Part shown: positions 34,494-41,994 of the stretch, one piece after another
How positions within the stretch are numbered: position 1 is the stretch's first letter
Layout of the letters: each line of letters starts with the position of its first letter
Assembly: GCA_004321915.1 (NCBI GenBank)
Contig: SCQE01000081.1
Location: 1 to 64,000 of the forward strand
Length of the DNA: 64,000 nt
DNA from: Nitrospirota bacterium
GTDB taxonomy: Bacteria > Nitrospirota > Thermodesulfovibrionia > Thermodesulfovibrionales > Dissulfurispiraceae
Reading direction: 5' to 3'
Notes under the pieces: generated by a model
The model's input: the letters and a program-made list of their open reading frames with translations, nothing else
Databases searched by the model: none
What the model was told of the DNA's origin: nothing
Position numbers and translations under genes: made by a program

Positions 34494-34570
<77 letters not shown>

Positions 34571-34594
34571 AATCGGGGCACCGCACAGAGAAAA

Positions 34595-34670
34595 TGGTAG
34601 GCGGAACAGGGATCGAACCTGCGACATCTGCCTTGTAAGGGCAGCGCTCTCCCAGCTGAGCTATCCGCCC
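34595..34670 (-). tRNA. tRNA-Val (TAC)
   Basis: The minus strand gives a 76-base cloverleaf with acceptor GGGCGGA pairing to TCCGCCT (one G-U at the first pair). The anticodon loop is CTTACAA with TAC, and CCA is encoded. A promoter with a perfect -35 box lies just upstream. Confidence 0.96.
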
Positions 34671-34815: not shown

Positions 34816-34858
34816 GTTAAATAAATTAATAAAAACCGGAAAGGAGGTGTTAACGTAT

Positions 34859-35239
34859 ATGAAGAAAGTTTTATTGCTTATGGTAGCAGTTATGTTTCTC
34901 TTATCCGCAGGTTGTGCAACAAAAGAATACGTAAAGCAGCAGATAGACCCGCTTGTTGACAGAATCGGCAAGCTGGAAGCAAGAGTTGCCGCTATCGAGT
35001 CCAAGGTAAGCTCCATAGAGGGCAGGATGGCCGACCTCGATCAGGCAAAGAAAGACGCAAGAGACGCAAAGGCCTTAGCTGCCGATGCCATGTCTATGGC
35101 AAAAGATTCTGCCGCAAAAGCAGATGCGGCTGCAAGAAGAGCTGAAGCTGCTGCTGACAGAGCCGAAGCTGCCCTGTCAAAGGCTGAAATGTCTTCAAAG
35201 AAGGCACAGAAGGCTTTTGAACTCCATCAAAAGAAATAG
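34859..35239 (+). CDS. Alanine-rich coiled-coil lipoprotein, Lpp/OprI-like
   Basis: This 126-residue protein starts at the ATG at 34859, after AAGGAGGTG. The lipobox LSAGC places the lipidated Cys at 19. The mature part begins with a heptad coiled coil (LVDRIGKLEARVAAIESKV). A long alanine-rich helix follows, and the chain ends in two lysines (ELHQKK). Braun lipoprotein likewise ends in a Lys that L,D-transpeptidases join to peptidoglycan. The mature chain of 108 residues is almost twice as long as E. coli Lpp (58). The facing gene encodes a LysM L,D-transpeptidase, so a covalent outer-membrane tether is a reasonable inference. Confidence 0.85.
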   Translation: MKKVLLLMVAVMFLLSAGCATKEYVKQQIDPLVDRIGKLEARVAAIESKVSSIEGRMADLDQAKKDARDAKALAADAMSMAKDSAAKADAAARRAEAAADRAEAALSKAEMSSKKAQKAFELHQKK

Positions 35240-35257
35240 TTTGTTTTATAAAATCCC

Positions 35258-35295
35258 AAAAGGCCTAGGATTGCGAATCCTAGGCCTTTTTTTTT
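35258..35295. terminator. Strong shared bidirectional terminator
   Basis: AAAAGGCCTAGGATT and AATCCTAGGCCTTTT form a perfect 15-pair stem around a GCG loop, with a T run on the plus side and an A run on the other. It ends the lipoprotein transcript and overlaps the stop of the convergent transpeptidase gene, so it can serve both. Confidence 0.92.
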
Positions 35296-36178
35296 ACTCT
35301 GTTATGTCCGTAGGGATCCCTGTTTTGTCCCGTATGACCTGATAGAGCTTTTCGGTGCTTATATCTTTTAACAGATTTTTCCTCTTTAATGCCCCTACTG
35401 CAATCCTCATATAGTTCTCGGACTTCTCCTCATCGTCTTTGTGCACTTCGAGATATATTTTACCGTTCTTCAAACCGACCTTTACCGGCTGTCTTGTAAT
35501 AACGACCTTAGCGCCGGCCACGACGTTTTCAAAAAGCTTGGGAATGTCTTCGGGGTAAAGCCTGAGACATCCGTGCGTAGCCCGCCTTCCAACAGCCCAA
35601 GGTCTGTTAGTGCCGTGTATCATTATGCTGTGCGACGATAGCCTCAAGGCATGCGAGCCGAGAGGGTTTTCAGGGCCGGGCGGCACAACTCGCGGCAGTT
35701 CGGGACGCTCCTCTCTTATGGAATCCGGCACATGCCAACTCGGCTTTACCACTTTCTCGACTACGCTGAATTTTCCAAGCGGCGTATCGTTCCCTTCGCT
35801 TCCGATGCCTATCGGGAAAGTCTGCACAAATTTCCTGCCTTTTCGCGCAAAAAAATGATACAGCCTCATTTCGGAAATATTGATGACTATGCCGTCGTAT
35901 GTTTCCGCTTCCGGCAGCGCCCATTCTGTCGGTATTTTTATTTCTCCGTCCACCGCAGGAACAAAAGGATCAAACTCGGGATTGGCGTTTACGATAGAGT
36001 TGTAACCCACGTCAAATTTTCTCGCAATCTCTATAAGCGATTCGTTGTCCTGCACTTTGTAATTCCGTCCGGCCCCTATTAACGGACTACCCGTCCCATA
36101 GGTAAAAACTTCCGCGTATGCCGTCGAACAAAACAGCAAAAGAACGATAACCAAGAATGGAATTTTTGCAAACCGCAT
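35294..36178 (-). CDS. LysM L,D-transpeptidase (YkuD family)
   Basis: This 294-residue periplasmic protein starts at the ATG at 36178, where a signal peptide begins (MRFAKIPFLV...AYAE). It has a LysM-like peptidoglycan-binding segment (YKVQDNESLIEIARKFDVG) and the YkuD catalytic domain with HGTNRPWAVG and the active Cys in ATHGCLRL. Its family forms 3-3 cross-links or joins lipoprotein to diaminopimelate. The layout matches E. coli ErfK/YbiS/YcfS. The gene faces the Lpp-like lipoprotein gene. An upstream in-frame ATG at 36250 would bury the signal peptide. Confidence 0.9.
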   Translation of the reverse strand: MRFAKIPFLVIVLLLFCSTAYAEVFTYGTGSPLIGAGRNYKVQDNESLIEIARKFDVGYNSIVNANPEFDPFVPAVDGEIKIPTEWALPEAETYDGIVINISEMRLYHFFARKGRKFVQTFPIGIGSEGNDTPLGKFSVVEKVVKPSWHVPDSIREERPELPRVVPPGPENPLGSHALRLSSHSIMIHGTNRPWAVGRRATHGCLRLYPEDIPKLFENVVAGAKVVITRQPVKVGLKNGKIYLEVHKDDEEKSENYMRIAVGALKRKNLLKDISTEKLYQVIRDKTGIPTDITE

Positions 36179-36309: not shown

Positions 36310-36385
36310 GGGCAGTTAGCTCAGTCGGTAGAGCAAGGGCCTGAAAAGCCCTGTGTCCGCAGTTCGATTCTGCGACTGCCCACCA
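36310..36385 (+). tRNA. tRNA-Phe (GAA)
   Basis: This is a 76-base cloverleaf with acceptor GGGCAGT pairing to ACTGCCC. The anticodon loop is CTGAAAA with GAA, the T arm contains AGTTCGATTCT, and CCA is encoded. It precedes the nucleoside transporter gene by 119 bases on the same strand. Confidence 0.96.
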
Positions 36386-37870: not shown

Positions 37871-39268
37871 GTGGCTAAGAAGGTATCCGTAAGCTTCGAG
37901 AACGAGATCGTCAAGGTGGTTTATGCTTCTCCGTCAAGCGAAGGGGTGACGGTAGAATCTCATATTACCATGAAGGACGAGGAGTTCGATGAGTTTCTCA
38001 AGACAGAAAAAACACGCCGTTTTACAGTAACCGCAAATTTCAAACGGACATATCAGGACATAATCACACTGCCTCCGGTCAAGGACAAAATTCTCAGTAA
38101 GCTGGTAGAACTCGATATAAAAAAGAAGGCGCCCGATTTAGGCGAAATCTCCTTCTATTACTCCGTGCTCAACGACATGATCGAAGAGGGCAGAAAGGTC
38201 ATTTCGGTTTTTGTCTATGCGGTAAGCGGCGAAGAACTGTCGCAGGTATTCGGGAGATTTTCAAAATACGGAAAAATAGTCAATGACCTGTATCCGGATT
38301 CGCTTCTGCTGTCATGCCTTAGCACTGCCGGAGAAAAAACCGCAAATGAAGCCAATGTTTATGTCAGTGAGAGCGGAAGCATTAAAAACATTCTACTTGC
38401 CGAAAACGGCAAGGTGTATTTTATGCGCAGTTTTCAGTCGTCGGAAAGCGGAATAAACGATGCGGACGTCCAGAACATAAACATGACCCTGAACTATTGC
38501 CGCCAAACCCTAAGAAAGAACCCTGTGGCTGTAACGTTTATGGGGACCGCGGCTTACAAGTACAGTGCGAATATAGCCCTTGCCGCTCCTCCATGCTGTT
38601 CCACCCACAGCATAAATTCAAACCTGTCTTCGGAAAAATGCGCCGAGTACTTGGCCCCCATTGCGGCGCTAATGCCGCTCGCAGACCTTGCCAAATACAG
38701 TTTCCTGCCTGAAGACACAAAAGCCGTGCGTTTGCAGAAGATGATCATGCTGTACAGCTCGTGTGCCCTTATAGTCATATCGCTTGCCGGAGGCGCATAT
38801 CTAAACAAACTCTCTTCAGAGCGCAAACAGGTCCAAGACAATATAACGGCGCTAAGAAGCGAAATAGCGCAGATGGGTTCTGTGACGGCCGGTTACAAAG
38901 CGAGGTTTGACGAACTCCAGAAGGTAATGCCTCGGATACAGTTTATCAATGATATAAATTCTTCCCCCGACATGAAGAAAACACTGATCGCTTTATCCGA
39001 GATTGCGCCTGCAAAGCTCAATCTTCCTACTGTCAGCTTCGGCTCCATACAGATCGAGCGTGAGGCCAAAAACGTGAAGCTGATCATAAAAGGGAACATA
39101 AAATCCTTTACCTATATCGATCTCGAGACTACTTACGCCAAACTCCTTGACGCGTTGAAAGGCAAAGGACTGGAAGTGATCTCTAAAAACATGTCCATCC
39201 AAGAAAAAACCTTTCAGGTCGAGGCCCGGATGGTTGCAAGCCCTGCTGCCGGAGGTGCCGTAAAATGA
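37871..39268 (+). CDS. MshI-like pilus assembly protein (PilM-PilN fusion layout)
   Basis: This 465-residue protein has a cytoplasmic N-terminal region of about 280 residues consistent with the PilM/GspL actin-like fold. One transmembrane helix lies at about 292-311, followed by a periplasmic part with a coiled coil and a ferredoxin-like PilN-type domain. It begins with GTG after AAGGGGCGG. In MSHA systems MshI joins the inner-membrane platform to the secretin through the J and K proteins, which follow here. Sequence divergence makes the family call rest partly on gene order. Confidence 0.75.
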   Translation: MAKKVSVSFENEIVKVVYASPSSEGVTVESHITMKDEEFDEFLKTEKTRRFTVTANFKRTYQDIITLPPVKDKILSKLVELDIKKKAPDLGEISFYYSVLNDMIEEGRKVISVFVYAVSGEELSQVFGRFSKYGKIVNDLYPDSLLLSCLSTAGEKTANEANVYVSESGSIKNILLAENGKVYFMRSFQSSESGINDADVQNINMTLNYCRQTLRKNPVAVTFMGTAAYKYSANIALAAPPCCSTHSINSNLSSEKCAEYLAPIAALMPLADLAKYSFLPEDTKAVRLQKMIMLYSSCALIVISLAGGAYLNKLSSERKQVQDNITALRSEIAQMGSVTAGYKARFDELQKVMPRIQFINDINSSPDMKKTLIALSEIAPAKLNLPTVSFGSIQIEREAKNVKLIIKGNIKSFTYIDLETTYAKLLDALKGKGLEVISKNMSIQEKTFQVEARMVASPAAGGAVK

Positions 39269-39795
39269 CCGCCCAATTTTTTAAAAGGATAGATATTAAA
39301 TTCACGGTTTTTTACGTTTGCTCCGTCTTGGTCCTGACCGGCATAATAGTTGCAATTTCCCTCTCGATACGGCATAATCAAGCGCTTTCCGCCGATGTGA
39401 CCAGCCTTCAGAACATCAAATCTAACCTTGCTAAAATGAAGAACGCCCCTGAGCTTATAAATGCGGCGATCGAAGACATTAAAAAAGCCATTCCGGAGAA
39501 AGACATAAAAACACCCGAAGTGCAGGTCTTCGCAGCGGTTGATGAACTGAAGGCCAAGTTTCAAGGCAGCGATGTTTCGTTTACCGCTATGGAACAGAAG
39601 AGCAATGAAATTATCATGCCGGTAATTATTAAGGGGTCATTCGACGATTATACCGATTTTACAAATGTGGTAGGTAATCTGCAGACATGGAAGTCCCCGT
39701 TTTTTGTAATAGATTCAATCTCTCTTACCGAAGGCAAGAGAAACGAATCTGTCGATTTCGAGTTAAAGGCAAAACTAAGGACTATAAAAAACTGA
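39265..39795 (+). CDS. MshJ/PilO-like inner-membrane pilus protein
   Basis: This 176-residue protein has one N-terminal transmembrane helix (12-34), a coiled coil (about 40-75) and a small alpha/beta domain, the PilO/GspM layout. It should pair with the upstream MshI-like protein in the periplasm. The ATG overlaps the previous stop (ATGA). Assignment is by topology and position. Confidence 0.75.
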   Translation: MTAQFFKRIDIKFTVFYVCSVLVLTGIIVAISLSIRHNQALSADVTSLQNIKSNLAKMKNAPELINAAIEDIKKAIPEKDIKTPEVQVFAAVDELKAKFQGSDVSFTAMEQKSNEIIMPVIIKGSFDDYTDFTNVVGNLQTWKSPFFVIDSISLTEGKRNESVDFELKAKLRTIKN

Positions 39796-39796
39796 T

Positions 39797-40288
39797 ATGG
39801 GAATGTTACAGAAATTTATTGCGTTTATGATTGCGCCGCTTCTCTTGCTGCCGTTAGGGTACTACATATCGAAAAAAATAAATATCGGGACCTCTCTTGC
39901 TCCTGCTGAAAAAAATGTCCAGCCTTTCAAACAGGACGATGTTAAAGTGCTCCCTCAGGAAATCGCGGCAGACGCAAAAAACATTCAGAGTCCGATAGAG
40001 CTTAAGCTGCCGGAAAAAAAGGTCGTAGAGAAAAAGGCCGCTAAGAAAAGCTATCCCAAAGACTCGCTGGCCGCTATTACAGAACAGGCAGACAAGAAGA
40101 AAGAGCCTCCCGAAGAGGTTGTCAAGCTGAACTTGACTCTTACGAGACATGATAAAAAAATGGCCGTAATCAATGGGAAACTGGTGCGTGAAGGCGACCA
40201 GTTTGAGGACAATAAGGTAGAAAAAATCGAGCGTACTAAAGTTTTACTAAAAGACAAAAAGGGGGAAAAATGGTTGATAATGGAGTAA
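39797..40288 (+). CDS. MshK/PilP/GspB-like periplasmic linker
   Basis: This 163-residue protein has one N-terminal helix (8-25), a long Lys/Pro-rich spacer (35-105) and a C-terminal beta domain (LNLTLTRHDKKMAVINGK...VLLKDKKGEKWL). That domain resembles the GspB/GspC/PilP fold that contacts the secretin. The end overlaps the secretin gene by 19 bases, so the pair is coupled. Confidence 0.72.
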   Translation: MGMLQKFIAFMIAPLLLLPLGYYISKKINIGTSLAPAEKNVQPFKQDDVKVLPQEIAADAKNIQSPIELKLPEKKVVEKKAAKKSYPKDSLAAITEQADKKKEPPEEVVKLNLTLTRHDKKMAVINGKLVREGDQFEDNKVEKIERTKVLLKDKKGEKWLIME

Positions 40289-41994
40289 GCTCCAAAAAAT
40301 CGAAATTGCGGAGGTCGCTCGCTTTAACGGGGACTCTATTGACCGCTTGTGTTTTCCTGTTGTCGGCATGTAAGTCGTCTCCGTTTGACATTAAAAGAGA
40401 CATAGCCATCCCCAAAGAGGCAAAAGAAACCAAGCGCGACAAGCCTATCCCCCCAAAGCCTGAAGCGCCTGAGTTTGTGCCTGTAAGCGAAGACGCATCC
40501 CCTCTAAAAACCCGGATGATCGATATTGTAGCGAAGAATATTTCGCTCGGCGATGTTATTAACGTAATCGCCGAGGCGACAAACCTGAACCTTGCTCTGG
40601 ATAAAGATGTAGATACCGGAAAGACGCTGAGTTTGAACCTTAAGAATGTTACTGCCGAAGACGCTTTGAACACTGTATTTACCTCTTTCGATTATTACTG
40701 GGCGCTTAAAAACAATATGCTGATAGTAAAGGCCGTTGACACGAAGATTTTTGAGATCGGCCATCCGGCAGTGACCCAAACCCTCGATATTGACATCGGC
40801 GGCGATATTATCGGAGGCGCAATGTCGGCAGCAGGCGGAAGCGCAAGCAATATAAAAGGCAATATAACACAGAAGGTTGCGTCCGATAAGTCGGCCCTCG
40901 ATTTCTGGACCGCGATAGAAGGTTCCGTTGGGAACATTATGGGAGCAAGCTGCGGAAGCGGAGGAGGAGGCAGCGCTGCAAGAACACAGACCGCTTCTAC
41001 GCCAACGCAACAAACAGCGCAACCTGCAGCACAATCACTCCTCCAGTCTCAAGGGCAGACTGTACAGTTAAGCGCGCCTTCTCAGGCCGGCCCTGTCTCG
41101 GCTGCCCGAGAAACCTGCAGCGTCAACAAGATGGCCGGGACAATAATGGTCACGACCACCAAACGCAATATGGAGAAGATCGAGCAGTACATAAATGTTG
41201 TAAAAAAGGTGCTCAACAGGCAGGTTGTGGTCGAGGCCAAAATAATAGAGGTGAACCTGAATAATAATTTGACTTTCGGCATCGACTGGTCTGCTGTCAG
41301 GCATTCCATGAGCAGCGCAGACAGGTTTGCAGCCAGCACTATTTCAACGCTTCCCAGCGCTAATTTCACGACGAGCGGAGGTTTCTCGAGCGTTCTCTCG
41401 ACAGGGTCCTTCTTCACTGCAAAGTGGGGAAGAGGCGATATGTTTCAGATAGTGTTAAACGCGTTACAGACCCAAGGCGACATAAGGACCCTCTCGAACC
41501 CGAGAATAAACCTTATGAACGGACAGACCGCCCTATTGGGCGTTGGGCGCAGCAGGACATACCTTGCAAAAATACAAACTAACGTGACTGCAGGCACAAC
41601 AACAACAACCTCAACAACAACCGAGGACAGGACCGTCCTGTCCGGCTTGATGATAGGGATAGTCCCCTATATCAGCGATGCCGGTGAAATTACCCTGACC
41701 GTAACTCCGATAATTTCTGAACTCCAATCCCTAGATACTATTGCACTGTCCGGCGGTAATACAATCCAACTGCCGACGATAGATCTAAGGGAGATGAGCA
41801 CAACCGTAAAGGTCAAGGATGATGAAATGGTGGTAATAGGCGGCCTGATAAAGAGAAAAGAGGGTATTGACGACAAACAGGTCCCTTTATTGGGAAGCAT
41901 TCCGTTGTTAGGAAATCTTTTCAAGAGTAAAGCCAAGACCGATGAAAAGACGGAGCTGGTAGTAATACTGCATCCTGTGCTGGTGTCGAGATAA
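40270..41994 (+). CDS. mshL: MshL-type secretin lipoprotein
   Basis: This 574-residue outer-membrane secretin has lipobox LLSAC (Cys34), periplasmic N domains (about 70-160) and a GspD-type domain. Its C-terminal beta-barrel secretin signature includes VPLLGSIPLLGNLFK. A Gly/Ser/Gln-rich linker flanked by two cysteines (near SCGSGGGG and ETCSVN) interrupts the N region, and a Thr-rich loop lies in the gate region. It should form the multimeric exit pore for the pilus. Confidence 0.9.
   Translation: MVDNGVSSKKSKLRRSLALTGTLLTACVFLLSACKSSPFDIKRDIAIPKEAKETKRDKPIPPKPEAPEFVPVSEDASPLKTRMIDIVAKNISLGDVINVIAEATNLNLALDKDVDTGKTLSLNLKNVTAEDALNTVFTSFDYYWALKNNMLIVKAVDTKIFEIGHPAVTQTLDIDIGGDIIGGAMSAAGGSASNIKGNITQKVASDKSALDFWTAIEGSVGNIMGASCGSGGGGSAARTQTASTPTQQTAQPAAQSLLQSQGQTVQLSAPSQAGPVSAARETCSVNKMAGTIMVTTTKRNMEKIEQYINVVKKVLNRQVVVEAKIIEVNLNNNLTFGIDWSAVRHSMSSADRFAASTISTLPSANFTTSGGFSSVLSTGSFFTAKWGRGDMFQIVLNALQTQGDIRTLSNPRINLMNGQTALLGVGRSRTYLAKIQTNVTAGTTTTTSTTTEDRTVLSGLMIGIVPYISDAGEITLTVTPIISELQSLDTIALSGGNTIQLPTIDLREMSTTVKVKDDEMVVIGGLIKRKEGIDDKQVPLLGSIPLLGNLFKSKAKTDEKTELVVILHPVLVSR

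Follow-up and report, generated by a model that had tools for sequence, protein, structure and literature searches.

A lipoprotein gene and the enzyme gene facing it

In the window (the whole 64 kb stretch of DNA that was analysed), we identified a gene for an Lpp-like lipoprotein on the forward strand (34859..35239; ATG at 34859, 126 aa), preceded by a near-perfect Shine-Dalgarno sequence, AAAGGAGGTG, at 34840..34849 of the same strand. It converges with a gene for a 294-aa L,D-transpeptidase on the reverse strand (35294..36178), and a terminator-like hairpin of 15 pairs, flagged on both strands, lies between the two (35258..35290). tRNA-Asp and tRNA-Val genes (34494-34670) are located on one side of the pair and a tRNA-Phe gene (36310-36385) on the other; downstream, at 37871-41994, the ORFs resemble by eye a PilM-N/O-P-Q type cluster in which a secretin-like protein comes last. 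Under the rule applied to alanine-rich lipoproteins, the Lpp-like gene is the sole ORF of its kind within the window.

From its sequence, the lipoprotein begins with a signal peptide ending in the lipobox LSAG/C (34859..34912, forward strand). The codon of the predicted acylated cysteine, Cys19, occupies 34913-34915 of that strand, which leaves a mature chain of 108 residues ending in HQKK. The absence of Asp at position +2 is the rule for the lipobox of the Braun lipoprotein (Lpp). Here that position is held by Ala, a reading of the motif from which localization is predicted.

AlphaFold2, run on a single chain, models the protein as one helix from residue 2 to residue 125 with a mean pLDDT of 90. 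Along the mature part (34913..35236, forward strand), the core hydrophobic residues recur with a period of 3.50 residues, the same as in E. coli Lpp. They are Ile, Leu, Val and Met in the N-terminal half and nearly all Ala in the C-terminal half, with a register shift in mid-chain; the predicted helix thus runs uninterrupted from an aliphatic to an alanine core. It closes with AFELHQKK (35213..35236, forward strand; the pattern match includes the stop codon), the presumed transpeptidase acceptor. The initial annotation had described a lipobox, a coiled coil and a C-terminal Lys-Lys, as well as 108 mature residues against 58 in E. coli. Sequence, model and periodicity bear this out, Lpp of strain MG1655 being 78 aa long with 58 mature residues, and the coordinates and numbers given there were correct.

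Profile searches placed the lipoprotein at the margin of known families. It resembles the Lpp/OprI alanine-zipper lipoproteins in that it scores 23.1 bits with PF11839 (Alanine_zipper), a marginal pass exactly at the cut-off of 23.1, but it reaches only 32.6 bits, over residues 2-110, with NF040598, whose curated cut-off is 43. The Braun lipoprotein model PF04728 gave no match at the lipoprotein locus, its sole match in the same genome lying elsewhere with an E value of 3.97, and a Foldseek search of the PDB with the single-helix model returned no match. Homology of low-complexity coils is hard to prove by sequence.

The facing gene encodes a signal sequence and a YkuD domain (PF03734; E 5.6e-24, 85.8 bits against a cut-off of 23.4) with the catalytic His, Cys and Arg. 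Across 13 aligned rows, no variation was seen at the catalytic-motif residues H188, G189, G203, C204 and R206. LysM (18.6 bits, cut-off 20.9) and Ldt_C (18.2 bits, cut-off 26.8) were matched weakly, below their thresholds.

Lipoprotein and enzyme in other genomes

We found the lipoprotein in 50 of the 80 genomes searched, its own included. The set of relatives comprises 58 homologues from 49 of these 80 genomes, and 56 of them end in Lys, 41 in Lys-Lys. We left out a 70-aa protein of G034, in which the lipobox pattern was not matched, and the G011 gene, which contains a run of N and ends in QQKK; the G075 homologue was trimmed to its lipobox for the length count. The A2 alignment consists of 34 chosen rows, among which the two named lipoproteins that do not end in Lys were not taken up; K126 is invariant in it because of this selection. 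With an A2 profile, 29 of 148 Nitrospirota genomes gave a match, almost all from the window's order, Thermodesulfovibrionales. Given this patchy distribution, occurrence throughout the phylum was rejected.

Among the 58 relatives, the enzyme gene lies within 300 bp of the lipoprotein gene in 42; all 42 pairs are convergent and all 42 lipoproteins end in Lys. Three of the other 16 lipoproteins (in G022, G025 and G070) are encoded near contig ends. An enzyme of the partner type (E <= 1e-59) is present in 48 of the 50 genomes with the lipoprotein versus 9 of the 30 without it (Fisher p 2.6e-10, kinship ignored). In family f10, of the Thermodesulfovibrio type (G039, G051, G060, G069, G078), we also observed a second paralogue of 98 residues, encoded away from the enzyme and ending in Lys.

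A survey of named genomes used the enzyme alignment alone as query and covered the best 80 of 580 confirmed loci; some contigs are common to this survey and that of the relatives. An alanine-rich lipoprotein is encoded within 600 bp of the enzyme in 64 of the 80 loci (Nitrospirota 17/20, delta-like 26/33, alpha 4/5, gamma 17/22). The two genes are convergent in 56 of these pairs and tandem in 8, and 62 of the lipoproteins end in Lys. By-eye counting found GGAGGTG 5' of the lipoprotein gene in 12 of the 17 named Nitrospirota cases from the same best 80 loci. The lipobox rule was loosened after misses had been checked by eye, and the background was counted with the same loosened rule: it yielded 1 match in 275,661 bp of flanks more than 1 kb from the enzyme. 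Since 64 of the best 80 of 580 loci carry the lipoprotein, against that single match in the 275.7 kb of farther flanks, the pairing of lipoprotein and enzyme is not accidental. Besides these pairs, L111:1810-4688 encodes a lipoprotein-type L,D-transpeptidase of 438 aa; next on that strand comes an alanine-rich lipoprotein with the end SMKK, and after it another YkuD-like gene.

Not every partner has the same end. The partner opposite the enzyme in family f3 (L103-L107) is a distinct and shorter alanine-rich lipoprotein that does not end in Lys: three of these partners end in LKKH and two have His/Lys-rich tails. One f3 example, L144, is also among the 64 named pairs. The initial annotation had regarded homologues lacking the terminal Lys as evidence against its reading. 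Such proteins exist, in a minority: 2 of the 58 relatives, 2 of the 64 named pairs (best 80 of 580 loci) and 5 of 5 f3 partners.

Mature lengths of the homologues range from 66 to 131 residues. Within the order they are a multiple of 7 in 37 of the 58 homologues, a count inflated by kinship; the share is 22 of 41 for genus-length combinations (also kinship-inflated), 18 of 34 for family-length combinations and 8 of 21 for distinct lengths. Outside the order, multiples of 7 were found in 3 of 26 delta-like, 0 of 4 alpha and 2 of 17 gamma cases, and a remainder of 3 is the commonest there. A universal rule of lengths divisible by 7 was thus rejected. Within the order, the steps of 7 suggest selection on an intact rod. 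Many homologues also carry a vicinal Cys-Cys in the middle of the coil or near its end (for example in G007, G015, G061 and Methylophaga L164 and L167), possibly forming inter-chain disulfides; the pair is absent from the lipoprotein of the window.

Enzyme class and the C-terminal tag

The NCBIfam model that best fits the enzyme is LdtE (NF047955), with 174.4 bits, under its cut-off of 480. Two other L,D-transpeptidase models follow with 146 and 143 bits, and every such model stays below its own cut-off. According to passages of PMC12729407, LdtA, LdtB and LdtC link Lpp whereas LdtD and LdtE cross-link. A possible alternative is that the facing enzyme makes 3-3 cross-links as LdtE does, that the lipoprotein is linked by another YkuD protein of the genome, and that adjacency reflects shared history or regulation. 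The order of the NCBIfam scores is in line with this, and so are the four YkuD matches in the genome and the layout at E. coli ldtE, which in MG1655 converges with lpp across 63 bases. Because LdtE faces lpp and is nevertheless described as a cross-linker in the same source, facing does not prove an enzyme-substrate relationship.

Descent does not favour the cross-linker, however. A tree of 92 rows groups LdtA, B, C and E of E. coli in a single clade (100/100). This is nested in an alpha-plus-gamma clade (100/98), where most of the remaining members are encoded next to such lipoproteins. The window enzyme belongs to a separate set of 25 rows (100/97) with Nitrospirota rows nearest to it, and it is no closer to LdtE than to the linkers. 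With LdtA, B, C and E grouped together, enzyme class does not separate linker from cross-linker, and tight orthology of the window enzyme with either LdtE or LdtA/B/C was set aside as undecidable. Geobacteraceae rows standing amid Nitrospirota rows allow for horizontal transfer. In addition, 8 of the 64 named pairs (best 80 of 580 loci) are tandem, all of them delta-like, so the link between lipoprotein and enzyme survives rearrangement. On balance we consider a cross-linking role for the facing enzyme unlikely. The earlier assignment to the class that links Braun lipoprotein is true only in a loose sense: the best model is that of a cross-linker, matched below its cut-off, and in the tree the window enzyme does not fall into the clade of LdtA, B, C and E.

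The end of the lipoprotein recurs on a protein of another kind. The pattern [A/S]FELxQ(K/R)K-stop was found at 53 places in 39 of the 80 genomes, once in the window's own genome, and the reversed control gave 0. Eight extra places were read: seven encode lipoprotein ends, and the remaining one, in G021, corresponds to a short frame. The seven are beta-propeller-like lipoproteins (L240:1838-2887, L239:1238-2275, L242:1072-2091, L243, L244, L245 and L246) with an alanine coil and an AFELQQ(K/R)K end. Six are complete, with 325-349 aa, and pass into an alanine-rich coil ending in KKAFELQQKK; the seventh is cut by a contig end. Weak matches to propellers of the NHL/SGL type were obtained for the two tagged lipoproteins that were scanned and for a G071 protein, a propeller-like tagged lipoprotein that itself faces a transpeptidase (L108:2668-3819). 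Homologues in G025, G032, G044 (two) and G055 are without coil and tag. A search for tag co-variation between both kinds of lipoprotein in f3 found none, the propeller proteins there being without coil and tag.

By analogy, the tail of coil and tag looks like a transferable anchoring module. A comparable case is the "Lpp box" of Dickeya dadantii OutB, as presented in parts of PMC12274547: a C-terminal Lys tag is common to Lpp and another protein, and both are linked by L,D-transpeptidases, whereas linkage is predicted here. The second carrier also differs, OutB being an inner membrane protein and the carrier in our relatives a beta-propeller-like lipoprotein.

These observations bear on a further explanation, in which the lipoprotein is a non-covalent coiled-coil spacer or an abundant surface lipoprotein and its terminal Lys is incidental. 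A Lys at the C-terminus is frequent among periplasmic proteins: passages of PMC12274547 put its share at more than 20% of the periplasmic proteins and lipoproteins of E. coli, and it is missing from the five f3 partners. Against an incidental Lys stand its frequency in both surveys (56/58, and 62/64 from the best 80 of 580 loci), the reappearance of the conserved AFELxQKK end on a different lipoprotein and the tight pairing with the enzyme, and we regard this explanation as improbable.

A predicted Lpp-type tether, its length and its distribution

The conserved pairing, the terminal Lys and the architecture together support well the initial annotation of an Lpp-like lipoprotein with its probable L,D-transpeptidase. 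The reading that we favour, with fair confidence, is that the pair constitutes an Lpp-type tether between outer membrane and peptidoglycan together with its enzyme. What the analysis showed are the lipobox, the helix with heptad periodicity, the terminal Lys, the intact catalytic motif and the conserved convergent pairing. We infer from them acylation, outer membrane location, a trimer and a covalent bond. The lipoprotein would receive its acyl chains at Cys19, and LolA would take it to the outer membrane in the absence of a detectable LolB. There it would form a long alpha-helical coiled coil, about 16 nm in length if each residue adds 0.15 nm and, to judge from E. coli Lpp, probably trimeric; the facing YkuD enzyme would join the side chain of Lys126 to the diaminopimelate of a stem peptide. 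Wall anchoring by the lipoprotein is likely. Dickeya Lpp, which ends in Lys-Lys, is peptidoglycan-linked according to the same parts of PMC12274547. The facing gene probably encodes the linking enzyme; we infer that the bond is made by this protein and not by one of the other YkuD proteins, of which the genome has four in all.

Lipobox, aliphatic-then-alanine heptad core, period of 3.5, terminal Lys and a convergent L,D-transpeptidase gene are all shared with the E. coli Lpp (PF04728)/ldtE locus. Unlike E. coli Lpp, the window protein has 108 rather than 58 mature residues and no PF04728 match, its host is without detectable LolB and its linkage is predicted. In the portion of PMC8824477 concerned, natural Lpp length is described as nearly fixed, with Geobacter as an exception of 99 residues or more. 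Geobacter and Geobacteraceae loci L128, L129, L132 and L154 encode close relatives facing the enzyme; the Geobacter figure, at least 99 residues, refers to the whole protein, which in the window has 126 residues and belongs to Nitrospirota.

The initial annotation had further proposed that a longer tether sets a wider periplasm. This is not established, since passages of PMC8824477 report that lengthened E. coli Lpp partly tilts. The tether may be real and its length may still not set the width, if long rods tilt or other machines keep the spacing. Such a situation, compatible with the tether itself, has in our view a little under an even chance. It agrees with statements in that source that Lpp+21 was accommodated by tilt and less linkage, that the gain in OM-PG distance was below expectation and that the width in Pseudomonas differs despite a nearly equal Lpp length. 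Pointing the other way are the modest rise in IM-OM width given there (32-36 versus 30-32 nm) and the steps of 7 within the order, which suggest selection on an intact rod. With 66-131 mature residues, the homologues form a natural series in which the dependence of periplasm width on tether length could be tested.

The window's own genome encodes LolA. LolB was detected in 0 of 40 genomes searched, the same genome included, and E. coli was the sole positive among 14 controls; it is possible that an analogue of LolB escaped detection. In the titles and abstract openings of the searched literature, with subscription papers mostly outside it, no Lpp-like protein is described in Nitrospirota. Passages of PMC11784454 confine Lpp narrowly to E. 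coli and its close, LolB-bearing kin, and parts of PMC10260701 confine it to a subclade of Pseudomonadota.

New, then, are a predicted Lpp-type tether without detectable LolB, its mature lengths of 66-131 residues and a beta-propeller-like lipoprotein bearing that coil and tag; in length the tether exceeds the natural range published so far, and it lies outside the published taxa. A pair with these lengths and without detectable LolB challenges the statements on restricted taxa in those parts of PMC11784454 and PMC10260701 and on fixed length in that portion of PMC8824477.

More tentatively, and with somewhat worse than even chances, Lpp tethering might, rather than having arisen late in a gammaproteobacterial subclade, be an old two-gene system of lipoprotein and facing L,D-transpeptidase, found in Nitrospirota, Thermodesulfobacteriota, alpha- and gammaproteobacteria, that does not need LolB. 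E. coli lpp-ldtE would then be a shortened descendant and LdtA/B/C duplicates, and coil plus AFELxQKK would be a portable wall-anchoring module, carried also by a beta-propeller lipoprotein.
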